Shown here piece by piece: positions 3,001 through 31,731 of a DNA stretch of 35,552 bases. Source of the stretch: an uncultured Eubacteriales bacterium (GTDB taxonomy: Bacteria; Bacillota; Clostridia; Oscillospirales; Acutalibacteraceae); assembly GCA_900315815.1 (NCBI GenBank), contig ONAS01000015.1, forward strand, positions 1 through 35,552. Reading direction: 5' to 3'. The notes beneath the pieces were generated by a model, which saw only the letters and a list, made by a program, of their open reading frames with translations, was not told the origin of the DNA and did not search any database. A program made the translations under genes and the position numbers. Each line of letters begins with the position of its first letter. Positions within the stretch are counted from its first letter, which is position 1.

Positions 3001-4996
3001 GTTCATCCGTGACGGTCACGGTGAAGAGATCGCGTATATCGAACTCAAAGATCCTGAAACAAATGACTATACCGAGGAACGGATCTGGTTTGCATCAGAT
3101 ACGAACACGATCGAAGGCAGATTCGTGTATAACGACGAATATTGTCCGTCGCATCTGAAGGTCGTCGGCAAAGAGACCGGCACGGTATATTATGATAACG
3201 ATAAGAGCGAGGATGCAAACACCTTCGTTTGCATGACCTCCGATTTAGCACCCTACGGCGAGAACCTCACGGTGATCCCGACCTTCAAGAAAGCGAAGCA
3301 GCCGACTGAGCCTCCCACAGAAGCGCCGACAATCGCTCCCACCGAACCTTCCACAGAGCCTCCGACAGAAAAGCCGACCGATCCCGAACCTGTCGAACAC
3401 GGCATCCGCAATTATGACGAGCTGGTAGCTTTCGCTCAGAGCGTTAACAGCGGCGACAACAGCGCCGATGCGTACCTCGAGAACAACATCCTCGTTCCTG
3501 CCGATTCCGAATGGACACAGGGCATCGGTACCGAGGACAACCCCTATTCCGGCACCTTCAACGGCAACGGCTACTGCATCATCGGACTGAAGATCAACAG
3601 CGAAACATACGGCGGTCTCTTTGCGTATGTCGGAGAAAAGGGCGTCGTCAAGGATCTTATGGTCTTCGACACCCGCTTCAAGAGTGATTCTGAATATGCC
3701 GCCGGTATCGCCGTGAAGAACGAAGGCACCATCGATCACTGCATCAGCGGCATCAATGTGCTCGGCAAAACGAGGATCACCCTGCCCACCGGCAAGAAGA
3801 TCAACCCTGCCGACTATAATTCCGTGATCAGGGGCGACGTCAGCGGCGGCATCGCCGCCATCAATAAGGGCACGATCACCGGCTGCCGCAACGGTTCCGT
3901 TGTGACCGGCGTCAACTGCGGCGGTATCGCGTGTGAAAACAGCGGCAGTATCTACGGCAGCACCAACAACGGCGCGATCGGCACCGATACGGCCGATTGT
4001 CAGGGTGCGGGCGGCATCGCCTATCTGAACAGCGGCAGCATCGCCAGCTCCTACAACTCCGGCAAGATCCACTGCGGCGACGCCAAGAAGAAGGGCATGA
4101 TCACGGCGATCAGCGGCTCGGATGACGTCAACGACGTATTCTTCAGCAATGTCAACAGCATCCCGCCGATCGGCGATCAGCCGGATCAGAAGCCTCTGAA
4201 TGATTCCAACAAGCTTGTTGATAACCCCGATATGCTGACGCCCTCCTTTGTCGAGACCCTCGCCGCCGTCACGGACGAAACGGTCACATGGGTACAGACA
4301 AAATACGGCGATACCTACTTCAACCAGGGCTATCCCACCATCAGGGGCAGATTCCTTGAGCAGAATACCCAGTACCTGACCAAGGAGATCACGATCACCG
4401 GCGCGATGCATTCCTCGCTGAAGGCTTCGGCGGCGGCGCTCGATACCGAAAGCGACGAATACAAGGCGCTCAGCGCCTCCGCGGACGGAGAGATCCTCTC
4501 CGCTTACTCCGTCGCGACGACCGACGCAAACGGCAAATATGTTCCTGCCGAGCTGTGGATCTCCGGCAGTGTCCGGCTCACTGTCCCGATCGATAACGGA
4601 CCCGCATCCACGGGCGCGGACGGCGATACGCAGAGCGGCAGCGCCGGTGACGTCGTTCTGGCGGTACTTGACGATGAGGGCGAGGTCGCGATCGTCACAC
4701 CCGACAGCACCGCTGACGGCAAGGCTGTCTTTACCCTCGCGGCTCCGAAGAACTTCGCGGTAGTAATGCGTTCGGCGATCCTTTACGGCGATACCGATCT
4801 CGACGGCAGCGTCACGATCGTTGACGCGACGTTGATCCAGCGTTATCTTGCCAATCTCGACACGCTTTCCGACAGACAGAAGCTGGTCGCGGACGTTGAC
4901 GGAGACGGCGACGTCACCATCATCGACGCGTCCCTGATCCAGAGAAAGCTCGCGGGCATCATCAAGGTGTTCCCCGCTGAAGAGAGCAAGGGATGA
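2..4996 (+). CDS. Large secreted dockerin protein, 5' end outside the window
   Basis: The frame is open from base 2 with no start or signal peptide, so the N-terminus lies upstream; 1664 residues are visible. An unrecognised N-terminal third is followed by beta-rich repeats that end in 'FTMP...VxI' phrases, like divergent InlB-type B repeats. Thr/Pro linkers of the PTEPPTEAP type lie near bases 2592-2652, 2943-2970 and 3301-3390. A GLUG-like stretch (GTITGCRNGSVVTG, GGIACENSGSIYGSTNNG) spans about 3540-4100. The C-terminus carries two calcium-binding dockerin repeats, [20 protein letters not shown] and DVDGDGDVTIIDASLIQRKL, at about 4789-4965. Dockerins bind cohesins on scaffoldins, so the protein is probably anchored in a surface complex. 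No catalytic domain was recognised; adhesion or a structural role is inference. Confidence 0.85.
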   Translation, partial: SGSTSIFDSNAVNNTFISLLSNLELGLSPQSAASQSISDYAAQLAYLCYPFSHQQYQYVHAVMEQQIMTILLVEMAYNEFLYNQGEYLKETYHDEDDPNGHYAKYLGYQKDFYNKMLNGIVPGIKKMLDHKMNVNGNGSISLSLSDYMKPEDAVSTTLKINNYSGSFNARYDWCLKMCGGDEDDADDMYDYYEDMDDNISNAKYIGQYVKFKKVMTHTANGRKVYYILDPDQFKGTDALYAKNFDHNCVFGGWGHDTHTISCDAHNLMKQMTDNSNNFIGVTDKDCTGFNDLVNSNYFSSTGSTLQGYLGANAERYLPDKTTNPCSEKEPKDPHNFVLTSVYHYEENAFKTEYATYSLIDCNKTFPDEKLHADYDMYMKNYQSSTNETFTVILRNESNTYKSNAHAVISNPSSGKIELSADDVHYDTNIAAAAGTQITVRMMAYKDAKFASLKMIRDADPFNNTSGDKTETLLMDSDQLNSLTPDGEGYITAHFTMPYSDATFRLEMYTTARIGETDHISGNLYGYDPVAKKKVSAPLITADKGTEIEIHLTADAGYEITDSLSFYNDDTNTKVDIPYDHLSTISGGAGSTTTYKYRFIMPEYSVRIEARAQDKSKAQIGNLAYCTGTMGTADLYNIYGIVEDTHETSIGASAGDRLGAIIRPEDGYGLGPNSVTFRDTGSGEALDIKYSTSVKTDTDGTMLFYVVFTMPQNSVTIDVTCEPCLVMSIDPYTFAYDENNNPVSYIRLLDSNFRETDSTYVQIPSNSTYYIFYLYDVEEHYLSHFKMVGTQTGKVYLDQDMSWDMDRCHEYLADNVGDIGFANNRDKRTNKHINYEVSIMFGTNSNQQPISESMMFIPTFANNEKPEPTEPPTEAPTEPPTEAPAKYTATLSSFDGGTPTFTLGSVAVTKKAEASEEIPFYITASPDYEVKELTITGTSGTSITPQKTAEPYQDGENMIHSYSFTMPAENVVIKGKLGPKAVPTEPPTEAPRYFAVPDNTQFIRDGHGEEIAYIELKDPETNDYTEERIWFASDTNTIEGRFVYNDEYCPSHLKVVGKETGTVYYDNDKSEDANTFVCMTSDLAPYGENLTVIPTFKKAKQPTEPPTEAPTIAPTEPSTEPPTEKPTDPEPVEHGIRNYDELVAFAQSVNSGDNSADAYLENNILVPADSEWTQGIGTEDNPYSGTFNGNGYCIIGLKINSETYGGLFAYVGEKGVVKDLMVFDTRFKSDSEYAAGIAVKNEGTIDHCISGINVLGKTRITLPTGKKINPADYNSVIRGDVSGGIAAINKGTITGCRNGSVVTGVNCGGIACENSGSIYGSTNNGAIGTDTADCQGAGGIAYLNSGSIASSYNSGKIHCGDAKKKGMITAISGSDDVNDVFFSNVNSIPPIGDQPDQKPLNDSNKLVDNPDMLTPSFVETLAAVTDETVTWVQTKYGDTYFNQGYPTIRGRFLEQNTQYLTKEITITGAMHSSLKASAAALDTESDEYKALSASADGEILSAYSVATTDANGKYVPAELWISGSVRLTVPIDNGPASTGADGDTQSGSAGDVVLAVLDDEGEVAIVTPDSTADGKAVFTLAAPKNFAVVMRSAILYGDTDLDGSVTIVDATLIQRYLANLDTLSDRQKLVADVDGDGDVTIIDASLIQRKLAGIIKVFPAEESKG

Positions 4997-5161: not shown

Positions 5162-5194
5162 AAAAAGACAGGACACACAATGTCCTGTCTTTTT
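5162..5194. terminator. Bidirectional terminator-type hairpin, repeat copy 1
   Basis: A perfect 14-bp stem, AAAAAGACAGGACA / TGTCCTGTCTTTTT, encloses the 5-base loop CACAA. T runs end both strands, so it can terminate either way. On the plus strand it lies 166 bases after the dockerin stop and could end that transcript. The bases after it, AAATGGTGGAGATAAGC, match the 3' tail of the tRNA-like unit at 5435. Confidence 0.65.
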
Positions 5195-5291
5195 AAATGG
5201 TGGAGATAAGCTGTGTTTCATCAGGAGGAAATCGGATACCCCGTCTTGGGAGCGCCCGGCGAGCGACAGACGCTCTATCTACGCTCTCGAT

Positions 5292-5316: not shown

Positions 5317-5392
5317 GCCTACGGATTGCGCTGACGCGCATCCTTGGCACACTCGCCTTCGAATCCGCTTATCTCTCACTACGGGTCAAATC

Positions 5393-5430
5393 AAAAAGAC
5401 AGGACATCCAGATGGATGTCCTGTCTTTTT
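5393..5430. terminator. Bidirectional terminator-type hairpin, repeat copy 2
   Basis: A perfect stem of up to 18 bp, AAAAAGACAGGACATCCA / TGGATGTCCTGTCTTTTT, is the same family as the hairpin at 5162. On the minus strand it directly follows the tRNA-Ala tail at 5435-5493 and would be its terminator. Confidence 0.65.
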
Positions 5431-5434
5431 GAAA

Positions 5435-5493
5435 TGGTGGAGATAAGCGGATTCGAACCGCTGACCTCTTGAATGCGAACCAAGCGCTCTCCC
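5435..5493 (-). pseudogene. tRNA-Ala(CGC)-like 3' portion, 5' part degenerate
   Basis: Read on the minus strand, the segment has D-loop GGGA and GAGC, an anticodon arm CTTGG-TTCGCAT-TCAAG (anticodon CGC, Ala), the variable loop AGGTC, a T arm AGCGG-TTCGAAT-CCGCT and TATCTCC-A-CCA. The CCA is encoded. A partner acceptor strand (GGAGATA) and a D-stem GCTC should lie at about 5494-5511, but the bases there do not pair. I read it as a tRNA whose 5' half was lost or replaced, or a copied tRNA tail such as an integration scar. A poorly folding functional tRNA is less likely. Confidence 0.5.
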
Positions 5494-5721: not shown

Positions 5722-5814
5722 ATGAAACAGAAGATGGTCACATACAATCGCACTTCATGCATATGCCGCCCTAAAAGAATTGTGAAATCAATCATCAGGA
5801 GGAAAACATCATGA
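5722..5814 (+). CDS. Possible 30-codon basic leader ORF upstream of the NRPS
   Basis: ATG at 5722 is preceded by GGAG with an 8-base gap. The 30-residue product starts MKQKMVTYN and ends RRKTS, and is rich in Lys and Arg with two Cys. Its stop TGA overlaps the NRPS start as ATGA, the arrangement used for translational coupling. The NRPS ribosome site AGGAGG lies inside its last codons. It has no recognisable family. It may be a coupling or leader peptide or a small peptide in its own right; a chance ORF is also possible at this length. Confidence 0.35.
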   Translation: MKQKMVTYNRTSCICRPKRIVKSIIRRKTS

Positions 5815-8800
5815 GCTTACTTACATCAACCCTTAAAAAGGTATTTGAAAAGCACCGCGGCAAGGTGCTGCTCACCGAGAACTATTCCGGGCGCAGTGTA
5901 ACAGGAGCGCAGCTTTTGGAGCTGAGCGGAAAAATCGCAGCCGCTTTGATACACAAGGGCGTAGAAAAGGGTTCTTTTGTTCCGATCATCCTGCCGCGCT
6001 GCATTGATTATATTGCTGCTGAGATCGGCGTACTGAGAGCGGGCTGCGGTTACGCGCCTGTTTTGCCCGAGTATCCGCAGGAGCGCGTTGATTATATCAA
6101 GAACGACTGTCAGGCTCCTGCTGTCATTGACGAAGCCTTTATCCGCTTTGCCATGACGCTTGACCCTCTGACCGAGGATGTCGAAACCGGCGAGGACGAC
6201 GTTTCTCTGCTTATCTATACATCCGGCTCCACAGGCAATCCCAAGGGCGTTATCCATACCCACCGCTCCTTTTATGAGACTCTGGACAGGGACCAGTGCA
6301 TCTTCGCCATGAATGAGGATGACAAAACGCTGGGGCTTGTCAGCTTCAGCTTTGCGTGGTCTGTCGCGGAAGTCTACGATACGCTGATCGTCGGCGCTCA
6401 GCTCATTATTCTGAACATCGAAGAGCGAAAGGACCTGAAGTACGTCAGGAATGCCATACGTGAAAACGGCGTCACCGTACTGTATATCAACCCCAATATG
6501 CTCAAGCGGCTCGATTTGTATGATTCTACCCTCAGGGCGGTAAAGACAGCGGGTGAAAGACTGGCTGATTTCTATACGGACGAATATCAGATCGTCAATA
6601 TCTACGGCACATCGGAAACCAATTGCGCTCTGTCGTTCACTCTCGACAGAGCTTATGAGAATACTCCTATCGGCAAAGCGAGCCTCAACACCCGCGTCGT
6701 TCTGCTGGATGAGAACGGCAGGGGAGTGTCTCAGGGACAGGAGGGCGAGATCTGCATATGCGGATATCTCGCAAAGGGCTATCTGAACCTCCCCGAGCAG
6801 ACGGCGAAGGTCTTTGAGAAGGATCCCTTCTCGGATGACGGGAGCAGAGTCCTCTATCATACCGGCGATATGGGAAGGATGCTCCCCGACGGCAGCGTTC
6901 TCTATATCAACCGCAAGGACTGGATGGTAAAGATCAACGGTCAGCGTGTGGAGACCGGAGAGATCGAGGTCAGGATCGTCACCGATCATTCCGATGTCGA
7001 AACAGCCGTAGTAAAGGCGTTTGAAAACGAATACGGTCTGACATATCTTGCGGCATATTATAAGGTCAATGCCGGGGCGTCCGTCACGGCGGAACAGATC
7101 GAAGCGTCCCTCAGGCAAAGGCTGCCCGACTACATGATCCCGCGTTTCTTTACGCAGGTAGAAGCCTTTCCGCTGAACCCCAACGGCAAGATCGACCGCA
7201 AGGCGATCCTTCCGCCAATGGCGGCGTCGTTCAAGGAAGAGTATGTCGCCCCCGTGACTGAGAATGAAAGACTGCTCTGCGCCGCTTTTGAGAAGCTGCT
7301 GAAATGCGGACAGGTCGGCGTCAACGATAACTTCTTCTCGCTGGGAGGCGATTCACTGTTGGCGATGAGCCTGCAGGCGGAGCCCGGCTTATCCGCGCTT
7401 TCATCAGAGATGATCTTTGCCGGAAAGACTCCCGCAAAGATCGCCGCAAGGCTGGAACAGGCAGAGACTTCCGAGGGACATGACAGATCTGCGCTGACCG
7501 AGTATCCTCTCAGCCCCTATGAAACAGGGATGTATCTTGAGCATAAGCTCGACCCGGACTCCAAGATGTATAATCTCATCGGTTATTATGAGGTCCGCGG
7601 CGCTTCTTCCGGGCAGATCAAGGCCGCCGTCGAAGAGATCTTCCGCAGTCATGAGGCTTTCCACTCGGTCTATCGCGAGAGGGACGGGGCGCTGCTGAGA
7701 GTATTGACGGATGAGATGCCTTCGGTCGCCGTTCGGCAGATAGATGATATCAGCGCTGTCCGTGAGCTGGCAGAGAAGCTCGACAAGCCCTATGATCTGT
7801 CGGGCGGTATCCCCGTGAGTGCTGTGATATATACTGACGGGCTGAGCTGTGTGCTGGCGCTGTTCTACCATCACATCATGTTCGACGGCGGCAGCGATGT
7901 GCTGTTCGGCAAAGAGCTTTTCGCGAGACTTTCGGGCAAAACGCCTGTTACCGATAACTTTGATCTGAGCGGCGCTTCACAAACGGATAAAGAGCCCGAA
8001 TACCGCAGGGGCTTTGAAAAGTATCAAGAGATGTTCGCGGACGGCGTGCCTGTCACCGAGCTCCCGCTTAAGGCGGCGCGTCCCAAGGTGCATCCCGAGT
8101 CCGACACAGACCGTCACTTTGTCATCGGCGGCGACCTGCTGCAAGGCTTGAAGCAAGCGGCCCGTCAAAGATCGGCGAGCCTGTTTGCCATGCTGTTGTC
8201 GGCATATTCCATGACGGCAGCAAAGTATACCGCCTCTGAGGATATTGTTATCAGCGTGCCTGTCAATACGCGCGACGGCCGTACCCGCAATACCATCGGT
8301 ATGTTTGTCAACACGGCTCTCCTGCGCCTGCGTCCCGTCCGCACCAAGTCGACGGACGAATATATACTCGAGGTACAGAAAGCTGTTTCAGATTACGTCA
8401 ATGAGAACAGATGTCCGTTCGACCGCCTTGTAGCGGCGTTCGCCGACGGCAGGGATGCTTCACGCAGCCTGCTGGCCGATCTGGGCGTCAACTATGTTCC
8501 CCTGCAGACCTCATATGATGAGGACGGCATTACCCTCAACACCTCATACCGCCTGCAGCCCTCCGGCAAGGATATCAACCTTGTCATGCAGGTAAAGGAT
8601 CAGCATATTGACTGCTATCTGCAGTATTCATCCGTCCTGTTCGAAGACACCGTGATCGACAACTTCATCGATCAGTTCATTACCACGGCAGAAAAACTGT
8701 GCGAGGATCAGACCGACACGGTGCGTCAGGCACTCGCTCTGCCCTTCCTGCAGCAGAGAGCGCTGAAGGCTTACTCGGCTGTCGCAAAAGCAGAGATACC

Positions 8801-11800
8801 CGTCAGGCTGCTGCATAAGCTGTTTGAGCAGAGCGTGTATGAGAACGCCGGCAAGACCGCGCTGATCGCAAAGGACAAGACGCTGTCATACAGAGAATTG
8901 AACGAATCCGCCAATATAGCCGCACACAATCTGATCGGCAGAGGCGTCGGGACGGGAGACAGCGTTGTACTTCTTCTGCCGCGTGAAAGCGTCTTTTTCA
9001 GCTGTCTGTTCGGCGTCAACAAGGCGGGCGCGGCGTTCATCCCCTGCGACCCGCAGTATCCTGCCGACCGTATCCGTTCGATCATCGAGGACAGCGGCGC
9101 AGCATATATCATCACGACAAAGGACAAGCTGTCTGAGTATCCCGCCGACAAGGCGATCGACGTCGAAGAACTCCTCAGCGGCAATGATACCGGGGATCCC
9201 GATATCGCGATGAACGGCGACGAGCTCGCCTATATGATCTACACCTCGGGCTCCACAGGCAAGCCCAAGGGCGTTATGCTTGCGCACAAGGGTATCTGCA
9301 ATTACCTTATGCCGCACCCCGCCAATACACATATCCACTATCTCAAGAATCATACAGAAACATATCTGTCGGTCACTACCGTCTCCTTTGATATGTCGTT
9401 CAAAGAGCATACGGCGGCTCTGTGCAACGGCAAGACGCTCGTTTTTGCCTCAGAGGATGAGATGAACGATCCAAGGGCGCTTGCTGAGCTGATGAAGAAG
9501 TACAGGGTCGACTGTATGAACGCCACTCCTTCACGCCTGCAGCAATATATGGAATATGAGCCGTTCAGGAACGAGCTTGCAAAATGCAGATTGGTCATGT
9601 CGGGCGGCGAGGGATATCCGATCTCACTGCGCGACGCGATCAAGGCATGCTCAGAGGATATCAGGATCATCAACACCTACGGTCCCACCGAGATCACCGT
9701 ATCCTGCAACGCCGCTGACCTCACCGACGCTCCTTACGTCACCGTCGGCAGGCCTCTGCTCAATTATTTTGAATACATCGTTGATAAATACGGCGACATC
9801 GCTCCGTTCGGTACGGTCGGTGAGCTCTATGTCGGCGGCGCAGGCGTTGCCGCGGGCTACCGCAATCTGCCCGAAAAGACCGCCGAGGCGTTTGTCGACT
9901 GCTTCGGTCAGAGGATGTACCGCACCGGTGACTATGCCAAATACGACAGGGACGGCAGCGTATTCATCCTCGGCAGGCTTGACAGTCAGGTCAAACTGCG
10001 CGGTCTGAGGATCGAGCTGAGCGAGATCGAGGGGCTCATCGAAGCGCAGCCGCATATCAAAAAAGCGGTCGTCGTCATCCGTCCGCTGGGCGGTCAGGAC
10101 AACCTTTGCGCCTATTTCACCGCAGACAGGGAAATCGATATTGACGAACTGCGCGATGAGTTGAAAAAACACCTCACGCACTATATGGTACCCGCGGCGT
10201 TCCTGCAAATGGACGCGCTGCCCGTCACAGCCAACGGCAAGACCGATACCAAGCGCCTGCCCGACCTTACCGCAGAAGCGCAGACCATCGCTGCGCCGCA
10301 AACGGAACTCCAGCAGCGCATCTATGATATCGCTGTCAAGGCGCTCGGCACCAGCGATTTCGGCGTCGATACCGAGCTGTACTCGGCAGGGCTCACCTCG
10401 CTTAACAGCGTGGGCTTCTGCATCAGGCTTAGCGATGCGTTCGGCGTGAATGTGCAGATCCGCGACCTGCGCGACAACGATACCGTAGAGAAGTTGGAAT
10501 CATTTATTCAGACCCTCGCACAGCAGGACGGGGAGGAGTTCGAAGTATTTGATGAATACGCCGTCACCAAAACACAGGAGGGCATCTTCTTTGAGACCCT
10601 GTCGCACCCGGACAGCCCTGTTTATAATGTCCCCGGTCTGTTCAAGCTGGATGAATCGATCGAGCTGCCCCGTCTCAGAAAGGCGGTCGCGGCGGCGGTC
10701 AACGCGCATCCGTATATGATGACCCGGATGTTCATCGATCAGAACGGCGGGATACGCCAGCGCAGAACGGACAGGACGTTATCTGAAAGCGAGATAGAAG
10801 AAGTCCGCTGCGGCTCTGTTGAAGAACTGATCGACGATCTGGTCGTTCCCTTTGACATACAGAAGGAAGATCTGTTCCGCTTTAAGCTGATAACGACCGA
10901 CAGCGGCAACTACCTTTTCTATGATATCCACCATATCGTATTTGACGGCGGCTCCAAGAATATCTTCCTGCGCGATATCAGCGCCGCATACAGGGGAGAG
11001 ACGCTCGAACCCGAAAGGTACAGCGGCTATGAGGCTGCCTTGGTCGAGGAGAAGCTCAGAGCGAGCGAGCATTATCAGGCCTCAAAAGAGTATTACACCC
11101 GGCTTTTGGACGGCGTTGAGAACGACTGCCTGCCGTACAACGACGTTCTCACCGGGGAGAAGCATAAGGGCTGCAATATGCTGAACCTGACCGGCAAAGA
11201 GGATATCCCCTCCGTGATAAAGGAGTATTGCGGCAGGTACCGCGTCAGCGAGAACGCCTTCTGCACCTCTGTCTTCGGGTGGCTGCTGGGCAAATACTGC
11301 GGCAGGGACGATTCTGTCTTTACCGTTGTTAACAACGGCAGGAACGATCCCCGCTTCAACGACAGCATCTCTATGTTCGTGCGCACCTATCCCGTACACT
11401 GCGATCTTGAGAATACCGACGTCGAGAGCTATATCAAAGAGATCGGCAGACAGCTCGCCGACAGCCTGCGTTATGATGTTTATTCATTTGCGGAGATCAG
11501 CCATGATCTGAACGTCAGCGCCGACGTGCTGTTCGTGTACCAGAGCACCCTGACCGACGGACGCATCTTTGATTTTTGCGGGGCAAAGGCTGAGAGCATA
11601 CCGCTGACCTTTGAGGAGGACAAGGCAAAGATCGAGATCCTCATCTATCCCACCGGCAACAGACTGTCCTACCACTGTTCTTTCGACGCCGATCTCTATA
11701 CAGAGGGCTTTATCCGCGAGATGATCATGACGTATGAGCGCGCGCTGTCTGAGTTTGCCGTCAAATCGAACACAGCCGATATCCGGCTCGTCGATGCCGA

Positions 11801-14800
11801 AACACAGGAAAGGCTCGAAGCCGTGAACCGCTTTGAGCACGAATACGAGATCACGGATATGGTCACGCCCTTCCGCCGTCAGGCGGCGAAGACCCCCGAC
11901 AATATCGCTGTGGTCTATCTTGACCGCACCTATACCTACCGCAAGGTCGACCGCATGACCGAGAATATCGCGGCATTCCTGCGGAGCAAGGGGATCGGCA
12001 AGAATCAGGCGGTATCGGTCATGATTCCCCGCTGCGAGTATATGCCCATCGCTTCTATCGGCGTTCTGAAATCCGGCGCGGGCTATCAGCCGCTCGATCC
12101 CGGCTATCCGTCAGAGCGGCTTGAGTTCATGATCAGGGACGCGGACGCTAAGTATCTGATAGCGGACAGGAGTCTGATGGACAGGCTGCCGAACTATGAC
12201 GGTCCCGTGCTCTATACGGATGAGATCCCCGACCTCCCCGACGCTGACAGGATCCCGGACGACCCCGATCCCTCAGATCTGTTCATCATGCTCTATACCT
12301 CCGGCTCGACCGGCGTTCCCAAGGGCGTCATGCTCGAGCATCACAACCTGCGCTGCTTCTGTGAATGGTATATCACGAACTACGGGATCGATGAGACCAG
12401 CCGATCGTCGGCATATGCCAGCTACGGCTTTGACTGCCATATGCTGGATATGTATCCTGTGCTGTTCTGCGGCGGACAGCTTCACATCATCGACGAGAGC
12501 ATCCGTCTTGATCTGATCGCGATCAAGGAGTATTTCCATCAGCACGGCATCACCCATACCTTCATGACCACTCAGGTCGGCAGACAGTATGCCGATCTGT
12601 TCCCCGACGCTTCTTATCCCCGCCACCTGATCGTGGCGGGCGAGAAGCTGGTGCCCGTCGATCCGCCGAGCGGCTTTACGCTGTACAACGGCTACGGGCC
12701 CACCGAATCCTTCTTTACCCATATGTTTACCGTTGACAGGCTCTACAGCCGCGTACCGATCGGCAAGCCCCTGTACAACATGAAGCAGTATATCGTCGAC
12801 AAGAACCTCAACCGACTTCCCTTCGGTATGCCGGGCGAGCTGATCGTCGCCGGCCATCAGGTCGCCAGAGGCTATCTGAACCGCCCGGAGAAGAACGCCG
12901 AGGTTTTTATCCGCAACCCGTTCACCGATGAACCCGGCTATGAGCACGCCTACCGCACGGGCGATATTGTGCGCATCATGCCCGACGGCACGGCGGACTT
13001 CATCGGCAGGAACGACGGCCAGGTCAAGGTCCGCGGCTTCCGCATCGAGCTTTCTGAGGTCGAGAGCGTAATCCGCAAGTTCCCCGGCATCAGGGACGCC
13101 ACCGTTCAGGCGTTCGACGAGGCGGGCGGCGGCAAGTTCATCGCGGCATATGTCGTCGCGGACGAGCCTGTCGACGTCGACGCGCTGGACGCGTTCATCA
13201 GGCGCGACAAGCCCGCTTACATGGTGCCTGCCGTTACCATGCAGATCGATCGTATCCCGCTCAACCAGAACCAGAAGGTCAACAAGCGCGCGCTGCCTGC
13301 GCCGGTCAGGAACACCCGGTCCGCCGAAAAAGAGCGCGAAGCCCGACCGCTGACGCTGTTTGAAGAAGAGATCGCGGCAGTCGCCAAACGGCTGTTGGGC
13401 GATATTGAGATACATCCTGCAGAACCTTTGACGAGCTGCGGTCTGACGAGTATCAGCGCGATCGGTCTTGTCGCGACCCTGGCGGACAAGTTTGACGTTG
13501 AGGTCTCAGCCGACAAGCTGCTCGACGGCGCGAGCATCATAGACATCGAGAACATGATATTCAGCGAGTGGATGCAGCGCGGCTTTGCGCAGAGATCACA
13601 GCCGCAGGATACCGGAGCCGCAGAATCTCCCAGGGCTGACAGGGCGCCGCTCTCGCCGGTACAGCTCGCCGTATACTACGACGCGATGAAGAGTGAAGCC
13701 GACGTAGTGTACAATCTCCCGATGTGTCTTCAGTTCGATCACATCGACGCTCAGCGCCTTGCAGAAGCAGTCAGGTCGGCCGTGTCCGCGCACAGCTATC
13801 TGAATACGCACATTGAGCTCAGCGACGGAGAGCTGATACAGGTCTGCGGCGATGAGGCTCAGGTCCGTGTTGAGACGCTTGCGCTGAACGCCGATGAGCT
13901 GGAGCGGTTCAAAAATACATTTATCCGTCCCTTCGATCTGCACAAGGGGCCGCTTTACCGCTTTGCTGTCGTCAGCTGTGATGACAAGACATATCTGTTC
14001 TTTGACGTCCATCATCTGATATTTGACGGTCTCTCCCGAGGCGTCCTGCTGCGCGATATCAGCAAGGCGTACACGGGCGAGGCGCTTTCGCCGGAGAGCT
14101 ACACCTATTTTGATTACGCTCAGGAGAGTGAAGCCTTCAAAGAGTCCGGGGCATATACAGAAGCCGGAAAGTATTTTGACAAGATGTTCGAACGCTTTGA
14201 GGCTCCGACCGAGATCCCCGCAGATAGATCCGGCAGTGCGGAGAACGGCGTAATAGGCGAGACGTCCTGTGCGATCTCCAAGCAGGCGGTAGATACCTTC
14301 TGCCGTCATCATAACGTACAGCCCTCTGCGTTCTTCCTCGCGGCGGTGTTTTATACGACGGCACGCTTTGCAGGGACAAAGGATGTCTATCTGTCCACCA
14401 TTTCATCGGGACGGGAGAGCGTCAAGACCCGCAATACGATAGGTATGTTCGTACACACCCTGCCGCTTGCCATGAGCTTTGATGATAAACAAAGCGTTCT
14501 GGAGCTGGTCAAAGCCTCCAACAGTGTGATACGCGGCAGCATCGGGAACGAGGATTATCCCTTTACCGAGATAGCCGCCAAGTACGGATACAAGACCGGC
14601 GTCATGTATGAATGCCAACTCGGCGTCATCACGGAAGGAGGCTCGGTGGGTGGCAGCGCCTATCAGAGCGTTCGCCTGCACTATGAAGCGCCTAAGTTCA
14701 AGGTGGTGTTCTCGGTAGTGGAGCGCGGCGGAGAATACGCGGTCCGTGTGATATATAACGACGCGCTGTATTCCGAGCCGTATATGCAGACCCTCGCAGA

Positions 14801-17800
14801 TTCGATCGGGAACCTCACAGAAAGGATGACGGCGGACAAGGACGCCGACGTCAGCACATTGTCGCTGATCACCAAAGAAGATAAGCGCTCGCTGATCGAT
14901 TTGGGAGTGACCGCAAAGCAGGAGATCGAAACCAGGCTGCTGCACCGCATCTTTGAAAACACAGCGGCGGCGAATCTGCAGAAAACAGCCTTGATCGCCT
15001 GCGACAAGACGCTGACCTATGCCGAGCTGAATCAAAACGCGAATCGCATCGCCCACAGCCTGACTCAAAAGGGCGTCTGTAAGGGGGACGGCATCGTACT
15101 GCTGCTGCCGCGCAGGAGTTTCTACTTTGAGGCGATGTTCGGCGTGCTGAAAGCGGGCGCGGCTTTTGTGCCCTGCGACCCCGAGTATCCCGCGGACAGG
15201 ATCCGTCATATCACCGAGGATTCCGGATCTCGCTTCATCATCACGACCCGGGAGCATACCTCTGATTATCCGGCTGATAAGGTTCTTCTGATCGATTCTC
15301 TCTATGATAATGAGAATACCAAGAATCCCGACGTTCCCTTGACAGGGCAGGATCTGGCTTATATGATCTACACCTCGGGCTCCACAGGCAAGCCTAAGGG
15401 CGTTATGCTGCGGCATGAGGGCATTTGCAGCTATATTACGCCTCACCCTGCCAATATTCATATCCATAATCTGAAGGAGCAGATCGAAACATTTCTTTCT
15501 GTTACGACCGTTTCCTTTGATATGTCGTTCAAAGAGCATACGGCTACGCTGTGCGTCGGCAAGACACTCGTCTTTGCCTCAGAGGATCAGATGAACGATC
15601 CGAGGGCGCTTACGCGGCTGATGAAGGAGAATAAAGTCGATTGTATCAATGCCACTCCTTCACGCCTGCAGCAATATATGGAGTATGAACCGTTCAGAAA
15701 CGAGCTTGCCAAATGCAGAATGGTCATGTCCGGCGGCGAAGCGTATCCGATCTCACTGCGAAACGCCGTGAAGGAATGCTCGGAAGTTATTATGATCATC
15801 AACACCTACGGCCCCACCGAGATTACGGTTTCCAGCAACGCCGCAGTCTTGAATGAAGCGGATCATATCCATATCGGCCGACCGCTCCTGAACTACACGG
15901 AATATATCGTTGACTCCGATCTGAATCTACTGCCGCGCGGCGTTATCGGCGAGCTGCTGATCGGCGGTCCGGGCGTAGCAAAGGGATACCGCAATCTGCC
16001 GGAGCAGACCGAAGAACGGTTCATCATGTATAACGGCGAGCGCGTTTACCGTTCGGGCGACTACGCCAAGTGGGACGAGAACGGCAACGTCATTGTGCTG
16101 GGAAGAATGGACGGTCAGATCAAGCTGCGCGGTCTGCGCATCGAACTCTCAGAGATCGAAGGCCTGATGGAACAGCAGCCGCATATCAGGCGCGCCGCTG
16201 CCGCGGTCCGCAACGTGGGCGGACGAGAGAATCTCTGCGCGTGGTTCACCGCCGACGCGACGGTCGACCTTGCCGAGCTGAGAGCTGCCCTCGCGCAAAA
16301 GCTCACGCACTACATGGTGCCTGCCGCGATGATGCAGGTGGACGCGATCCCGGTCACGCCCAACGGCAAGACAAACGTGAAAGCCCTGCCCGATCCCGAG
16401 TTGACCGAGAGCGGCGAATACGAGGCGCCCGTCAATGAAGCCGAGGGATTCTTCTGCAAGCTGTTCGCTGAGATCCTCGGATTGGATAAGGTCGGCGCGA
16501 CCGATGACTTCTTCTCGATCGGCGGTACGAGCCTTGCCGTTACGAGCGTGATGATCAAGGCGACCGAAAACGGTTATGAGCTGACCTACGGCGACGTTTT
16601 CAAATATACGACCCCGCGTCAGCTCGCGGCAAAGTTTACGGGAGAGGGCGATACCAAATCGCTTTCCGCCGCGCGGTTCGACCAATATGATTACAGCAGG
16701 ATCCATGAACTGCTGTCAAAGAATACCGAAGCCGCCTTCCTGAACGGAGAAAAACGCCCGATCGGCAATATCCTGCTGACAGGCGCGACCGGATTTATGG
16801 GGATCCATGTCCTCGCTCAATTCCTGAAAACACAGAGCGGAACGGCTTACTGTATGCTGCGTAAGGGACGGTTCCCGACCGCTGTTGATCGCGTCAAAAG
16901 CATGTTGGTATACTATTTTGACGAAACGGTGGAAAAAGAATTTGACCGCGTACAGGTGTTTGACGGTGATGTAACAAATTACGACAGCTTCAAGGCTCTG
17001 CTTGAAATGCCGATCGATACGGTGTTCAACTGTGCCGCGAGCGTCAAGCATTTCTCCAGCGGCACGGACATCGAGGATATCAACGTAGGCGGTGTGAAGA
17101 ACTGTATCCGTTTCTGCCTTGAAAAGGGAGCGAGGCTGATCCACTTCTCCACCACCTCTGTGTCCGGTGCGATAAAGAATCAGCCGGGCGCTAAGTCCAG
17201 ATATCTCGATGAGCATGTGCTGTACTTCGGACAGATACTGGAAAACCAGTACACTTCCTCCAAGCTTTTGGCGGAGCGCGTGCTGTTTGAAGCGGCAGTC
17301 AGGAACGGTTTGGACGCCAAGGTGATCCGCGTGGGCACGCTCGCTCCGCGTGAATCCGACGGCGAATTCCAGATCAACTTCCTCAGCAACAGCTTTATGG
17401 GTCGTTTGAGAAGCTTTGTGATGCTCAAGGCGTTTCCGCACAGCATGATCAACAATCCGCTGCGAATGGGACCGATTGACACGAGCGTCAAAGCGTTCCT
17501 GCTGCTTGCGCAGACCCCGGCGGACTGCCGCCTGTTTAACGCGGTCAATACCCATACCGTTCCGCTGATCGATGTCATCCGCATCTTGAACGAATTGGGA
17601 CTGGGCATTAAGGTCGTAGAAAACGAGCTGTTTGACAGCGTGCTTGAGCAGGCGGAGCAGGATCCTGCCAAAGCGGCTATTCTGGCGAGTATGCTGGCAT
17701 ACAAGAATATGAACGGTAATAATGTGCTTCCTGTAGAAACGAAGTTTGATTATACTTCCAAGATCCTGTCGCGGATGGGTTTCTACTGGAACAATACAGA

Positions 17801-17876
17801 CAAGGACTATATTCGCCGTTTCATTGAAGCGTTGATGGGACTGGGCTTCTTTGATGAAAACAACCTCAGCAGATAA
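5811..17876 (+). CDS. Four-module nonribosomal peptide synthetase with terminal thioester reductase
   Basis: This 4021-residue megasynthetase has the order A1-T1-C1-A2-T2-C2-A3-T3-C3-A4-T4-R. A-domain P-loops YTSGSTG lie near residues 134, 1142, 2161 and 3185. Carrier serines lie near 513 (LGGDSL), 1530 (GLTSLNS), 2547 (GLTSISA) and 3574 (IGGTSL). Condensation motifs HHxxxDG are intact near 687, 1707 and 2733. The R domain has the NAD(P)H motif TGATGFMG near 3657 and YTSSK near 3814, so the thioester should be released by reduction as an aldehyde (or alcohol). By alignment to GrsA, the codes read A1 AWAYKAICA-K, A2 DMKNVSTVS-K, A3 DCLFIAGFT-K and A4 DMKNVSTVS-K. A1 lacks Asp235. There is no epimerase or thioesterase. 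The start follows AGGAGGAAAACATC. Gut Clostridia are known to make NRPS-derived peptide aldehydes; the exact product here is inference. Confidence 0.95.
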   Translation: MSLLTSTLKKVFEKHRGKVLLTENYSGRSVTGAQLLELSGKIAAALIHKGVEKGSFVPIILPRCIDYIAAEIGVLRAGCGYAPVLPEYPQERVDYIKNDCQAPAVIDEAFIRFAMTLDPLTEDVETGEDDVSLLIYTSGSTGNPKGVIHTHRSFYETLDRDQCIFAMNEDDKTLGLVSFSFAWSVAEVYDTLIVGAQLIILNIEERKDLKYVRNAIRENGVTVLYINPNMLKRLDLYDSTLRAVKTAGERLADFYTDEYQIVNIYGTSETNCALSFTLDRAYENTPIGKASLNTRVVLLDENGRGVSQGQEGEICICGYLAKGYLNLPEQTAKVFEKDPFSDDGSRVLYHTGDMGRMLPDGSVLYINRKDWMVKINGQRVETGEIEVRIVTDHSDVETAVVKAFENEYGLTYLAAYYKVNAGASVTAEQIEASLRQRLPDYMIPRFFTQVEAFPLNPNGKIDRKAILPPMAASFKEEYVAPVTENERLLCAAFEKLLKCGQVGVNDNFFSLGGDSLLAMSLQAEPGLSALSSEMIFAGKTPAKIAARLEQAETSEGHDRSALTEYPLSPYETGMYLEHKLDPDSKMYNLIGYYEVRGASSGQIKAAVEEIFRSHEAFHSVYRERDGALLRVLTDEMPSVAVRQIDDISAVRELAEKLDKPYDLSGGIPVSAVIYTDGLSCVLALFYHHIMFDGGSDVLFGKELFARLSGKTPVTDNFDLSGASQTDKEPEYRRGFEKYQEMFADGVPVTELPLKAARPKVHPESDTDRHFVIGGDLLQGLKQAARQRSASLFAMLLSAYSMTAAKYTASEDIVISVPVNTRDGRTRNTIGMFVNTALLRLRPVRTKSTDEYILEVQKAVSDYVNENRCPFDRLVAAFADGRDASRSLLADLGVNYVPLQTSYDEDGITLNTSYRLQPSGKDINLVMQVKDQHIDCYLQYSSVLFEDTVIDNFIDQFITTAEKLCEDQTDTVRQALALPFLQQRALKAYSAVAKAEIPVRLLHKLFEQSVYENAGKTALIAKDKTLSYRELNESANIAAHNLIGRGVGTGDSVVLLLPRESVFFSCLFGVNKAGAAFIPCDPQYPADRIRSIIEDSGAAYIITTKDKLSEYPADKAIDVEELLSGNDTGDPDIAMNGDELAYMIYTSGSTGKPKGVMLAHKGICNYLMPHPANTHIHYLKNHTETYLSVTTVSFDMSFKEHTAALCNGKTLVFASEDEMNDPRALAELMKKYRVDCMNATPSRLQQYMEYEPFRNELAKCRLVMSGGEGYPISLRDAIKACSEDIRIINTYGPTEITVSCNAADLTDAPYVTVGRPLLNYFEYIVDKYGDIAPFGTVGELYVGGAGVAAGYRNLPEKTAEAFVDCFGQRMYRTGDYAKYDRDGSVFILGRLDSQVKLRGLRIELSEIEGLIEAQPHIKKAVVVIRPLGGQDNLCAYFTADREIDIDELRDELKKHLTHYMVPAAFLQMDALPVTANGKTDTKRLPDLTAEAQTIAAPQTELQQRIYDIAVKALGTSDFGVDTELYSAGLTSLNSVGFCIRLSDAFGVNVQIRDLRDNDTVEKLESFIQTLAQQDGEEFEVFDEYAVTKTQEGIFFETLSHPDSPVYNVPGLFKLDESIELPRLRKAVAAAVNAHPYMMTRMFIDQNGGIRQRRTDRTLSESEIEEVRCGSVEELIDDLVVPFDIQKEDLFRFKLITTDSGNYLFYDIHHIVFDGGSKNIFLRDISAAYRGETLEPERYSGYEAALVEEKLRASEHYQASKEYYTRLLDGVENDCLPYNDVLTGEKHKGCNMLNLTGKEDIPSVIKEYCGRYRVSENAFCTSVFGWLLGKYCGRDDSVFTVVNNGRNDPRFNDSISMFVRTYPVHCDLENTDVESYIKEIGRQLADSLRYDVYSFAEISHDLNVSADVLFVYQSTLTDGRIFDFCGAKAESIPLTFEEDKAKIEILIYPTGNRLSYHCSFDADLYTEGFIREMIMTYERALSEFAVKSNTADIRLVDAETQERLEAVNRFEHEYEITDMVTPFRRQAAKTPDNIAVVYLDRTYTYRKVDRMTENIAAFLRSKGIGKNQAVSVMIPRCEYMPIASIGVLKSGAGYQPLDPGYPSERLEFMIRDADAKYLIADRSLMDRLPNYDGPVLYTDEIPDLPDADRIPDDPDPSDLFIMLYTSGSTGVPKGVMLEHHNLRCFCEWYITNYGIDETSRSSAYASYGFDCHMLDMYPVLFCGGQLHIIDESIRLDLIAIKEYFHQHGITHTFMTTQVGRQYADLFPDASYPRHLIVAGEKLVPVDPPSGFTLYNGYGPTESFFTHMFTVDRLYSRVPIGKPLYNMKQYIVDKNLNRLPFGMPGELIVAGHQVARGYLNRPEKNAEVFIRNPFTDEPGYEHAYRTGDIVRIMPDGTADFIGRNDGQVKVRGFRIELSEVESVIRKFPGIRDATVQAFDEAGGGKFIAAYVVADEPVDVDALDAFIRRDKPAYMVPAVTMQIDRIPLNQNQKVNKRALPAPVRNTRSAEKEREARPLTLFEEEIAAVAKRLLGDIEIHPAEPLTSCGLTSISAIGLVATLADKFDVEVSADKLLDGASIIDIENMIFSEWMQRGFAQRSQPQDTGAAESPRADRAPLSPVQLAVYYDAMKSEADVVYNLPMCLQFDHIDAQRLAEAVRSAVSAHSYLNTHIELSDGELIQVCGDEAQVRVETLALNADELERFKNTFIRPFDLHKGPLYRFAVVSCDDKTYLFFDVHHLIFDGLSRGVLLRDISKAYTGEALSPESYTYFDYAQESEAFKESGAYTEAGKYFDKMFERFEAPTEIPADRSGSAENGVIGETSCAISKQAVDTFCRHHNVQPSAFFLAAVFYTTARFAGTKDVYLSTISSGRESVKTRNTIGMFVHTLPLAMSFDDKQSVLELVKASNSVIRGSIGNEDYPFTEIAAKYGYKTGVMYECQLGVITEGGSVGGSAYQSVRLHYEAPKFKVVFSVVERGGEYAVRVIYNDALYSEPYMQTLADSIGNLTERMTADKDADVSTLSLITKEDKRSLIDLGVTAKQEIETRLLHRIFENTAAANLQKTALIACDKTLTYAELNQNANRIAHSLTQKGVCKGDGIVLLLPRRSFYFEAMFGVLKAGAAFVPCDPEYPADRIRHITEDSGSRFIITTREHTSDYPADKVLLIDSLYDNENTKNPDVPLTGQDLAYMIYTSGSTGKPKGVMLRHEGICSYITPHPANIHIHNLKEQIETFLSVTTVSFDMSFKEHTATLCVGKTLVFASEDQMNDPRALTRLMKENKVDCINATPSRLQQYMEYEPFRNELAKCRMVMSGGEAYPISLRNAVKECSEVIMIINTYGPTEITVSSNAAVLNEADHIHIGRPLLNYTEYIVDSDLNLLPRGVIGELLIGGPGVAKGYRNLPEQTEERFIMYNGERVYRSGDYAKWDENGNVIVLGRMDGQIKLRGLRIELSEIEGLMEQQPHIRRAAAAVRNVGGRENLCAWFTADATVDLAELRAALAQKLTHYMVPAAMMQVDAIPVTPNGKTNVKALPDPELTESGEYEAPVNEAEGFFCKLFAEILGLDKVGATDDFFSIGGTSLAVTSVMIKATENGYELTYGDVFKYTTPRQLAAKFTGEGDTKSLSAARFDQYDYSRIHELLSKNTEAAFLNGEKRPIGNILLTGATGFMGIHVLAQFLKTQSGTAYCMLRKGRFPTAVDRVKSMLVYYFDETVEKEFDRVQVFDGDVTNYDSFKALLEMPIDTVFNCAASVKHFSSGTDIEDINVGGVKNCIRFCLEKGARLIHFSTTSVSGAIKNQPGAKSRYLDEHVLYFGQILENQYTSSKLLAERVLFEAAVRNGLDAKVIRVGTLAPRESDGEFQINFLSNSFMGRLRSFVMLKAFPHSMINNPLRMGPIDTSVKAFLLLAQTPADCRLFNAVNTHTVPLIDVIRILNELGLGIKVVENELFDSVLEQAEQDPAKAAILASMLAYKNMNGNNVLPVETKFDYTSKILSRMGFYWNNTDKDYIRRFIEALMGLGFFDENNLSR

Positions 17877-17886
17877 GGTGGATCGT

Positions 17887-19629
17887 ATGGAGAGAAACGG
17901 AAGATTGATCAATCACAAGTATAACGAATACCTCTTCACAACGCTGGCGATGAGCGGATGCGCGTCTATCGCCACGATCGTTGACAGGATCATCGTCGGA
18001 CACCTTCTGACCGCTAATGACCTGAACGCGACCAACCTGATCGGCCCGCTGATTTATGTGCTGAATATGATCTTCGGACTTTTCATATACGGCGGAAACA
18101 CGCTGGCTGTGACCTATAAGGGAAAACGCGATCAGAAGACGGCAAATAAATGCTTTACCATTTCCATCCTTGCAGGAGCCGTATTCATGGCGATCTTTGC
18201 ATTGATTGGTTTGGCTTTTCAGACGCCGCTGTCAAATTGGCTCTGTGTCGGCAAGGAGGAACTGCTTCAGCCCGTGTCGGATTATCTGATCCCCGTGCTG
18301 TTTCTGGGCGTTCCCATGATCCTGCTCAACGGCACCTCGGCGTTTGTCAGGGTAGACGGCTTGCGCAAGCTTGCCGTTGCCATACCCATCGTGTCCAATG
18401 TGCTGAATCTGACGCTGGATTATGTCTTTATGGGTGTTTGCAAATTCGGTATCGCGGGTGCGGGATGGGCGACGAACATCGGCTTTACAGCGACCCTGCT
18501 TCTGCTGATTCCGTATTTCCGCTCGTCAAAGCGTACCGTGTTCTTTACGCGCATCGGACTCAAGGATTTTCGTTTGATGTTCAACGCCTTCCATCTGGGC
18601 TTGGCGACCGCGCTGATGTATCTGTGTATGTTCATCAAGAATAATTTCCTCAACACGATCGTCCTGAGTACACTCGGCGCGGTAGGCGGTCAGGTACTCG
18701 CGGTATGCTCGTCGGTAATGAGCGTTGCCAATATCTTCTTTACCGGAACCGCTCAGACCATGCTCCCGATCAACGGAGCGCTGTACGGAGCGCAGGACTA
18801 CAACGGGATCCGAAGGCTGTTCAAGCGGTCCATGCTTGTTATGGAGATCATCTGCGTGGTGATCATGGCTGTATTCATGATATTCCCTCTGCAGACCGGC
18901 GCGGTCTTCAACGTGACCGGAGCGGATGCGCAGGAGCTTTTGCCCGGAGCTATCTTTATGTTTTCTCTTTGTGTTCCTCCCACAGGCGTCCTGTTCATCA
19001 TCCGATCGCATTATCAGTCGACAGGTCATCGCAACGCTGCGACCGTGCTCACTGTTCTGGAGGGGACCGTATTCTTTATTCCCGTGCTTTGGGCTTTGTC
19101 ACTGATCGATTCCAACGTCATTTGGCTGTCGCACGTGATTTCGATAATATTGGCGATCGCTGTCATGCTTTCGGCGATGAGCGTCATAGCAAAACGAAAG
19201 GGCAAGACCGCATTTCTGCTGCTGCCGAAGGAACCTGACGGTGACACCTATGATTTCAGCATCGAAAACAAGGTGGATGCGGCTGTTCAGGCCTCAGCCA
19301 AGGTGGTCGAATATTGCCGTGCCAAAGGGGTCGACGATAAAACAGCGACTATGATAGGCGTTTCAGTGGAGGAGCTGTGCGTCAATACGGCAAAATACGC
19401 TTCAAGCGCAAAATCGGATATGGTCGATATCTTCCTGAAGATAACGCCCGAAGCCGTTGTTCTCAAGGTGCGCGACAATGGAAAAATCTTCAACCCGACG
19501 GAGTATATTGATCATTCGGGCGAGATGATAACAGGTCTGGAATTGATCAGAACCATCAGCACCAAGATAGAGTATAACCGTGTTATCGGCTTCAACACCA
19601 CCATCGTAACGGTCAACCGAGCCGGATAA
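17887..19629 (+). CDS. MATE-family exporter fused to a C-terminal RsbW-like ATPase domain
   Basis: The start at 17887 (580 residues) is chosen because AAGGTGG lies five bases upstream, 10 bases after the NRPS stop; a TTG start at 17851 would overlap the NRPS. Residues about 10-440 form a typical MATE antiporter with roughly 12 membrane segments, including VDRIIVGHLL and the loop GIAGAGWATNIG. Residues about 455-580 are a soluble HATPase_c domain of the RsbW/SpoIIAB type: N-box EELCVNTAKYA, G1 box VRDNGKIFNP, G2-like MITGLELIRTIS. MATE pumps use ion gradients and normally end near 450 residues, so the added domain is unusual. Position in the operon suggests it exports the NRPS product; the ATPase domain may regulate the pump or phosphorylate a partner (inference). 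Confidence 0.85.
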   Translation: MERNGRLINHKYNEYLFTTLAMSGCASIATIVDRIIVGHLLTANDLNATNLIGPLIYVLNMIFGLFIYGGNTLAVTYKGKRDQKTANKCFTISILAGAVFMAIFALIGLAFQTPLSNWLCVGKEELLQPVSDYLIPVLFLGVPMILLNGTSAFVRVDGLRKLAVAIPIVSNVLNLTLDYVFMGVCKFGIAGAGWATNIGFTATLLLLIPYFRSSKRTVFFTRIGLKDFRLMFNAFHLGLATALMYLCMFIKNNFLNTIVLSTLGAVGGQVLAVCSSVMSVANIFFTGTAQTMLPINGALYGAQDYNGIRRLFKRSMLVMEIICVVIMAVFMIFPLQTGAVFNVTGADAQELLPGAIFMFSLCVPPTGVLFIIRSHYQSTGHRNAATVLTVLEGTVFFIPVLWALSLIDSNVIWLSHVISIILAIAVMLSAMSVIAKRKGKTAFLLLPKEPDGDTYDFSIENKVDAAVQASAKVVEYCRAKGVDDKTATMIGVSVEELCVNTAKYASSAKSDMVDIFLKITPEAVVLKVRDNGKIFNPTEYIDHSGEMITGLELIRTISTKIEYNRVIGFNTTIVTVNRAG

Positions 19630-31416: not shown

Positions 31417-31731
31417 TCAATCTAATCCGGCAAGATTGCGCTGGATTCTTGTTGCGTCAAGAATGGTTACTTCTCCGTCTTGGTCTGCATCAGCGTATTT
31501 CATCTCTCTGTCGTTTTCATCACACAACCAGTAGACCTCTCCGATTTCTTCATCGCTTATCAATTTCGCTCTGTAACGTTGGATGAGAGTTGCATCAACA
31601 ATTGTAAGTTCACCATCGTTATCAGCATCGCCGATAGGCTTGCCGATCTTCAGATCCCACAACACATCATAGGCCACACTTTCGAATATGTCAACTAATC
31701 TATATTCCGGTTTAATTACTCTCCACTGCAC
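31417..31731 (-). CDS. Short dockerin-bearing ORF, probably a remnant
   Basis: The 104-residue frame starts with a GTG that overlaps the end of pdxST by 16 bases and has no ribosome site. Two dockerin repeats are clear: [20 protein letters not shown] and [20 protein letters not shown]. About 35 residues precede them ([20 protein letters not shown]). There is no signal peptide, which a dockerin protein needs to reach the surface. The frame is open for about ten further codons into pdxST, up to a TGA. I think it is the C-terminus of a lost secreted protein joined to pdxST by deletion; a real small cytoplasmic dockerin protein is less likely. Confidence 0.5.

Follow-up and report, generated by a model that had tools for sequence, protein, structure and literature searches.

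What does the first module of a nonribosomal peptide synthetase (NRPS) load when its adenylation domain lacks the marks of an amino-acid pocket, and what would such an assembly line release? The question is raised by one large gene on contig ONAS01000015.1 (GCA_900315815.1) of an uncultured Eubacteriales bacterium of the Acutalibacteraceae. The 35,552 nucleotides analyzed here are referred to as the window, and the genome to which they belong is a 2.38 Mb assembly in 142 contigs that is 97% complete. The answer proposed is that the first module of this self-contained NRPS provides an acyl group, and that the three following modules add amino acids before reductive release. The predicted product is an N-acyl tripeptide aldehyde, most likely in the form acyl-Glu-Leu-Glu-al, a reading to which a probability of about 0.6 is given.

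The open reading frame (ORF) has an ATG start, is preceded by AGGAGG and is free of internal stops. Pfam recognizes four AMP-binding stretches (E 6e-290), three Condensation domains (1.5e-165), four PP-binding domains and one NAD_binding_4 domain (1e-30). Profiles built from the enzyme's own domains agree with this and place the adenylation (A), carrier (T), condensation (C) and reductase (R) domains in the order listed in Table 1. Apart from the C-terminal reductase, Pfam finds only A, C and T domains in the enzyme, and no ketoreductase is among them. The condensation sites HHIMFDG, HHIVFDG and HHLIFDG lie at residues 687, 1707 and 2734, and the carrier serines of T1 to T4 are found in LGGDS, GLTS, GLTS and GGTS. 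An earlier reading made from the sequence only had called the line intact; all four serines, the three HHxxxDG sites and the reductase motifs could indeed be located, and the NRPS is likely a working line.

The same sequence-only reading had predicted four amino-acid units, X1-X2-X3-X2-al. For A2 to A4, which have Asp235 (GrsA numbering is used for pocket positions), the amino-acid assignment holds, but not for A1. When A1 is aligned to linear gramicidin synthetase A, Asp235 is replaced by Ala and YGPTE by YGTSE, which had gone unremarked. A Lys of A1 sits at position 300, outside the pocket code. According to the extracts of PMC11253843 used here, it is Asp235 that binds the alpha-amino group.

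The A domains were compared across 101 sources, namely the window, 20 chosen stretches and 80 loci (numbered L below). The chosen stretches, 2 from the window's own genome and 18 from 18 other genomes of the same genus, were picked from matches to A1-T1; such matches occur at E 1e-60 in 65 of 100 genomes, the own genome among them and extender domains counted too. The 80 loci are the best 80 of 358 relatives (380 stretches matched) and were fetched by last-module motifs (peptide patterns VTT[VI]SFDM and NTYGPTEI). Their loaders were thus not selected on A1, while those of the same-genus stretches mostly were. Alignment of 210 A domains of at least 380 aa yielded 197 distinct ones: 71 loaders, defined as the first A domain of an A-T-C start, 121 extenders, and five that were left out of the 121.

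Asp235 is absent from all 71 distinct loaders (V 54, A 8, I 8, S 1), and so is the proline of YGPTE (Q 57, L 7, A 3, T 2, M 2). Both are present in 121 of 121 distinct extenders, a count much of which is biased because SFDM and NTYGPTEI favor D235, Pro and DM in last A domains: 91 of the extenders are the last A domain of a reductase-ended ORF, and the 30 others needed no match to the patterns. The five leftover domains, four from single-A ORFs and one from an A-C ORF, have lost both residues as well, and L085 among them looks like a split loader.

Were A1 a dead remnant, C1 would work as an ordinary starter C domain with an acyl-CoA, as the ORFs of L037 and L137, which lack A1-T1, might suggest. 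The loaders, however, do not appear to be decayed. The A3, A8 and A10 motifs are kept in 71/71, and T[GKNR]D at A7 in 69/71 (strict TGD in 61/71). The same patterns hit 118 (A3), 120 (A8), 110 (A10) and 82 (strict TGD) of the 121 extenders; the window's own third A domain is among those missing the A10 pattern, with NQKVN in which the Lys is retained. In the loader ORFs a GGxS-type site is found in T1 in 72 of 74 cases and HHxxxDG in C1 in 73 of 74, the exceptions being L119 (T1 site) and the broken L063 ORF (both sites). Across 55 two-module enzymes the conservation of A1 matches that of C1 (mean pairwise identities 0.668 and 0.665), although it is below that of A2 (0.753) and R (0.738). Taken together, a dead A1 is very improbable.

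It could also be supposed that A1 takes an alpha-amino acid in spite of its altered pocket. X1-X2-X3-X2-al, a tetrapeptide aldehyde with no cap, would then be released and might cyclize to an imine. Lines of the AusA type (A-T-C-A-T-R) do load an amino acid in module 1. McyG is reported to accept phenylpropanoid acids as well as an amino acid. McyG has Val at 235 and is nevertheless reported with L-Phe in the extracted parts of PMC11253843, so that a lost Asp235 is no absolute proof. On the other side, the two pocket marks are jointly missing in every one of the 71 loaders, and L037, a relative with the same body, begins at C without A1-T1. For these reasons the four amino-acid units of the sequence-only reading are not retained, an amino acid at A1 is judged improbable, and a tetrapeptide with a free amine is unlikely.

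A1 very probably loads a non-amino acid, judging from its pocket. Several A domains with comparable changes are described in the sections of PMC11253843 drawn on here: the keto-acid domain StsA has Ile for Asp235 and Met for the conserved Pro, and lost its activity when the Pro was put back; two hydroxy-acid domains have Ala or Gly in place of Asp235; the aryl-acid domain DhbE has Asn235 and the A5 motif QQVxFMAEGL. An assignment of A1 to the DhbE kind was rejected on its motif (Ala235 and NIYGTSE vs Asn235 and QQVxFMAEGL). A PDB search with the loader profile brought up LgrA and other NRPS entries at the top and named no acid. As a special case of acyl loading, A1 might take an alpha-keto acid; the tripeptide aldehyde would then bear an alpha-ketoacyl cap and thus two electrophilic carbonyls. 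A1 has lost both residues that are replaced in StsA, Asp235 and the Pro after YG, yet such changes are not exclusive to keto acids and may equally suit hydroxy, fatty and plain acids. Moreover, alpha-keto-acid modules of the StsA kind carry a ketoreductase in the same module, and depsipeptide synthetases carry one too, whereas none is found by Pfam in the window line. A keto acid is accordingly a minority option, and an unlikely one, among the acids that A1 may take.

The relatives show how such a head could have been joined to this body. From A2 to R the individual domains of the window line share 67-94% identity with L037 (L037, L042 and L139 are the same gene), which has the layout C-A-T-C-A-T-C-A-T-R without A1-T1 and the codes DMKNVSTVS, DCLFLAGIF and DMKNVSTVS. 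The C1 domain of L037 is just 39% identical to that of the window. A1 is nearest to the A1 of L140 (63% identity; code A-L-D-Y-A-T-I-C-A), an enzyme of three modules with 54% identity to the window line in C1. Because A1 is nearest L140 while A2 to R match L037, the line appears mosaic, with A1-T1-C1 as in L140 and the three-module body as in L037 and L043. Close counterparts are the NRPSs of RUG12253 (L037/L042) and RUG475 (L043). The former is 85% identical over A4-T4-R and resembles the window line in its codes too, with DMKNVSTVS in the two outer modules and an almost unchanged one in the middle; it differs in its C start. The latter (78% over A4-T4-R) shares the four-module layout and differs in its codes (loader VAQFVTAGA, A2 DLKNVATIS, A3 DAMFLVAIF).

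Another relative is L137, whose C1 is close to that of the window (Table 1). Its first two modules match as well (A domains 84 and 83%); its last A domain has the code DVLKIIGIT and its R is 39% identical. L138 is like L137, yet its C1 is 40% identical. Both thus combine similar first two modules with a distant reductase (39-41% to the window R) and another P1 residue. In a midpoint-rooted FastTree tree of 77 C domains, obtained from 116 distinct ones by thinning the 72 that belong to loaders, the window C1 and most of the loader C domains shown form one group, together with the loader-less first C domains of L037 and L045 and the contig-edge fragments L062 and L079. The starter C domains of L022, L038, L039, L041, L113-L115 and L118 fall outside this group. 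TycC came first in a PDB search with C1, and no C type was assigned. In our reading C1 would accept an acyl donor, from T1 where a loader is present.

The most plausible role of A1-T1-C1 is that of an acyl-loading start, because A1 lacks Asp235 and the YGPTE proline, like all other loaders, and because the same body begins at C in L037/L042; the product would be acyl-X-(aliphatic)-X-al, a capped tripeptide aldehyde. Layouts among the best 80 of 358 relatives are 56 A-T-C-A-T-R, 5 C-A-T-C-A-T-R, 2 of the three-module loader form and 1 C-A-T-C-A-T-C-A-T-R; the four-module form of the window is found in 2, L043 and L046 (cut by the contig edge), and the other ORFs are partial, broken or of a different layout. 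Several of the 80 loci come from samples of the rumen, the omasum or other ruminant gut, and the host of the window is presumably a Ruminococcus-like bacterium living in such a gut.

The outer residues X are specified by A2 and A4, which are 67% identical. The pocket alignment confirms the code DMKNVSTVS read earlier for both. The middle pocket of A3 reads D-C-L-F-L-V-G-F-(T or F), its ninth letter varying with the placement of a one-residue gap. Lys239 is known in Glu codes, such as DAKDLGVVDK. In the pocket of A4, which sets P1, Lys239 is present and acidic residues are absent beyond position 235, in support of the acidic side chain hinted at earlier. A leupeptin-like product, also proposed then, would have a basic P1 (Arg in leupeptin) and is unlikely with this predicted pocket. 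Counts of D-x-K-N in 83 of 91 and of Lys239 in 88 of 91 distinct last A domains must be read with the fetching patterns in mind, which favor DM and bias these counts. Of 18 reductase-ended enzymes in the 20 chosen stretches, 16 end in DMKN; the other two are L022, from the own genome, and L039. P1 is probably acidic, judging from the pocket. With Lys239 in the pocket and ruminopeptin of Ruminococcus described as acyl-Leu-Glu-al, X is probably Glu; for P1, Glu in particular is put at somewhat better than even.

The GATGFMG and Y-TSS-K (YTSSK) motifs of R are intact. Of the solved R domains, 6vtj, presumably from Methanobrevibacter ruminantium, is the nearest and aligns with almost the entire R (331 bits); the alignment with the AusA reductase 4f6l is partial (160 bits, query residues 4-416). 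Thioesterase release, which had been named earlier as a counter-case, was looked for by Pfam at E 0.001 and no such domain was found in the NRPS; together with the intact R motifs aligned to 6vtj, this rules out thioesterase release or a dead R. The earlier claim of reductive release is thus supported by a C-terminal NAD_binding_4 domain with both motifs. It is likely, from these motifs, that R releases an aldehyde, and a protease-inhibiting peptide aldehyde is, as had been proposed, the likely product class.

The following sequence of events is envisaged. The substrate of A1 would be a carboxylic acid lacking an alpha-amino group, whether alpha-keto, branched short-chain, fatty or aryl, which the domain would adenylate and load onto T1. 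C1 would couple the acyl group from T1 to the amino acid on T2. By domain logic, modules 3 and 4 would add the aliphatic residue and then a second copy of the first residue. R would then reduce the T4 thioester with NADPH to the free aldehyde. The carriers would be primed by an Sfp-length transferase encoded elsewhere, for which one PF01648 protein of 203 aa (Sfp length) is found on another contig of the own genome. The MATE protein, whose gene overlaps that of the NRPS (Table 1), would export the acyl tripeptide aldehyde, which would trap a serine or cysteine protease cutting after Glu; a target of the GluC kind is suggested tentatively. As the acyl cap removes the free amine, the aldehyde would be unable to self-close, unlike uncapped dipeptide aldehydes.

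The exporter is a recurrent neighbor: among 94 reductase-ended NRPS ORFs (95 sources, six duplicate loci dropped), an adjacent MATE gene with HATPase is found in 55 and one without detected HATPase in 5. In L060, the sole annotated neighborhood of this kind, the order is NRPS, MATE-HATPase, SpoIIE-HATPase, PGA_cap-like and STAS, an arrangement that may place export or synthesis under a partner switch. The HATPase domain of the MATE protein is SpoIIAB/RsbW-like, and in L060 the MATE fusion followed by the SpoIIE-HATPase and STAS genes occupies positions 12959-18001. STAS-like ORFs occur in 63 of 101 sources (five duplicate loci included), and a STAS gene lies just upstream in 18 of 53 two-module relatives with sufficient upstream DNA. 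Such neighbors leave room for a product that acts as a signal or in another role, or whose aldehyde is reduced to an alcohol, with protease inhibition not being its use. Tight control would suit signaling equally well. However, no STAS gene was found in the window, profile search included (best E 4.2), and the recurrent Glu-like P1 speaks for a protease target, as does the precedent of ruminopeptin, which Schneider and Balskus reportedly described in 2018 as acting against a Glu-specific protease. A role other than protease inhibition is considered possible but is not favored.

Besides McyG and the sampling bias of the extenders, further points weigh against an acyl-loaded, exported, Glu-ending aldehyde. 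Just one distinct relative (L037 = L042) has the whole same body without a loader, and L137 and L138 match it in modules one and two and diverge at the end. A C1 domain that lacks a loader might work with an A-T protein from a separate gene; no such gene was found upstream within 1.8 kb (L137), 4.9 kb (L138) and about 14 kb (L139). In the tree, the loader C domains of L023, L024, L025-L030, L033 (1000-aa ORF) and L119 lie outside the group of the window C1. A DMKN-type domain of known substrate was not found, and four such strings occur in no open-licence paper searched. R domains can carry the reduction on to the alcohol, a matter on which sequence alone makes no decision. Finally, 26 of the 94 reductase-ended ORFs have no adjoining MATE gene and 8 are undecidable.

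How does the line compare with known systems? The ruminopeptin synthetase (rup, Ruminococcus bromii) has what we take to be the layout C-A-T-C-A-T-R, which the window line does not match. L038 and L041, from the window's genus, do have this layout; their first A domain looks aliphatic and their second is of the DMKN type. Ruminopeptin, likewise the product of a Ruminococcus NRPS, is described in the excerpts of PMC8518294 and PMC12327764 as an N-acyl peptide aldehyde with acidic P1. Compared by description, its dipeptide Leu-Glu differs from the window product, for which an A-T-C loading start and one extra amino-acid module are at hand. The gut dipeptide-aldehyde NRPS family of Guo et al. 2017 is presented in the same excerpts (PMC8518294, PMC12327764) as a source of protease inhibitors, isolated as pyrazinones or acylated; its dipeptides are likewise set apart from the three amino acids and the loader without Asp235 seen here. 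AusA is the top NCBIfam row for the NRPS (1867 bits, under its cut-off of 2500). AusA has a homologous reductase and an A-T-C start in common with the window line, and differs from it by having two modules and starting with an amino acid.

In the parts of PMC2812497 drawn on, the NRPS of mru0068/mru0351 of Methanobrevibacter ruminantium adjoins a MatE exporter as in the window, in an archaeal host, and mru0068 also adjoins serine phosphatases and an anti-sigma antagonist; a thioesterase is given in the text and a thioester reductase in the figure legend. As similar neighbors were reported there in 2010, the neighborhood as such is already known. Rumen NRPS clusters are well catalogued, with 5,346 in 8,160 genomes according to the portion of PMC8241843 used. 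Among the matches listed from the open-licence literature, no paper on an acyl-loading A domain in this NRPS family was found by title, nor did that literature turn up the close characterized homologue with a different product named earlier as a counter-case. According to PMC8518294 and PMC12327764, gut peptide aldehydes inhibit proteases, and those described there are dipeptides, some of them acylated.

Table 1. Positions of the NRPS gene, its predicted domains and the overlapping exporter gene in the window.
Feature	Position	Strand	Basis or remark
NRPS gene, A-T-C-A-T-C-A-T-C-A-T-R, 4021 aa	5811..17876	+	ORF, Pfam, own-domain profiles
A1, loading A domain without Asp235 and without YGPTE proline; code A-W-A-Y-V-T-I-C-A	5853..7220	+	
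T1 carrier, LGGDS	7260..7445	+	
C1 condensation domain; 74% identity to L137 C1 (no A-T before it in the L137 ORF)	7497..8708	+	
A2, code DMKNVSTVS, probably Glu	8838..10271	+	
T2 carrier, GLTS	10305..10499	+	
C2	10551..11750	+	
A3, code D-C-L-F-L-V-G-F-T/F, hydrophobic, probably Leu-like	11871..13307	+	
T3 carrier, GLTS	13356..13550	+	
C3	13638..14855	+	
A4, code DMKNVSTVS, sets P1, probably Glu	14952..16400	+	
T4 carrier, GGTS	16437..16628	+	
R, NADPH thioester reductase domain	16683..17855	+	Pfam, own-domain profiles, alignment with 6vtj
MATE exporter with C-terminal HATPase_c_2 (kinase-like ATPase) domain	17854..19629	+	First ATG 23 bases inside the NRPS gene end

Two further NRPS-related genes are present in the own genome. 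On contig C40 (L023:5173-8178) a reductase-free A-T-C protein of 1001 aa without Asp235 and with YAASE is encoded, preceded by a STAS gene and followed by a carboxylesterase gene. Lacking a reductase, it is perhaps an N-acyl amide synthase, to be compared with the gut fatty-acid-amide pathway with OaaC (PMC13142362, a listed title). Open frames of 996-1013 aa with an L023-like A domain are found in about 40 of 100 genomes, the A-T-C order being established for L023 and L033. On contig C72 (L022:6152-13384) lies a second reductase-ended NRPS, C-A-T-C-A-T-R, of 2411 aa, with codes DAFFLTGIF and DFMSYLGIS and with STAS and MATE neighbors.

In the window, two large dockerin-domain proteins, 185-4996 (+) and 20151-27308 (-), flank the NRPS and MATE genes. 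Further downstream PdxS and PdxT share one 460-aa open frame, 31716-33098 (-), divergent from a PdxR-like MocR regulator, 33191-34297 (+). Upstream of the NRPS, repeated pieces at 5190-5211 and 5427-5448 look by eye like a tRNA 3' end, and a perfect hairpin with 20-base arms lies at 5391-5432, with partly similar stretches on other contigs. No tRNA genes were called in the window, and Rfam gave no match at the gathering threshold.

Should A1 load a carboxylic acid, the predicted product would shift from a free-amine peptide to a capped, non-cyclizing aldehyde with a mostly Glu-like P1, and the same would apply to the relatives with two modules (56 distinct loaders) and with three (9 distinct loaders). 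Predictions that assume an amino acid at A1 would then name such products one residue too long. More speculatively, rumen Ruminococcus and related bacteria may have in common a series of synthetases that load an acyl group and make Glu-ending aldehydes of one to three amino acids, with A1 taking a keto acid or some other carboxylic acid of the rumen. The series would run from acyl-Glu-al over acyl-X-Glu-al to acyl-Glu-Leu-Glu-al, with acyl-glutamal, containing one amino acid, the commonest; with a keto acid at A1 the products would carry two electrophiles. In many members, export and synthesis would stand under a SpoIIE/STAS/kinase switch that is partly built into the exporter. The exact masses to seek in rumen samples would follow from the capped-aldehyde structure, and Glu-specific proteases may be the targets, in a habitat where the breakdown of feed protein has economic weight.

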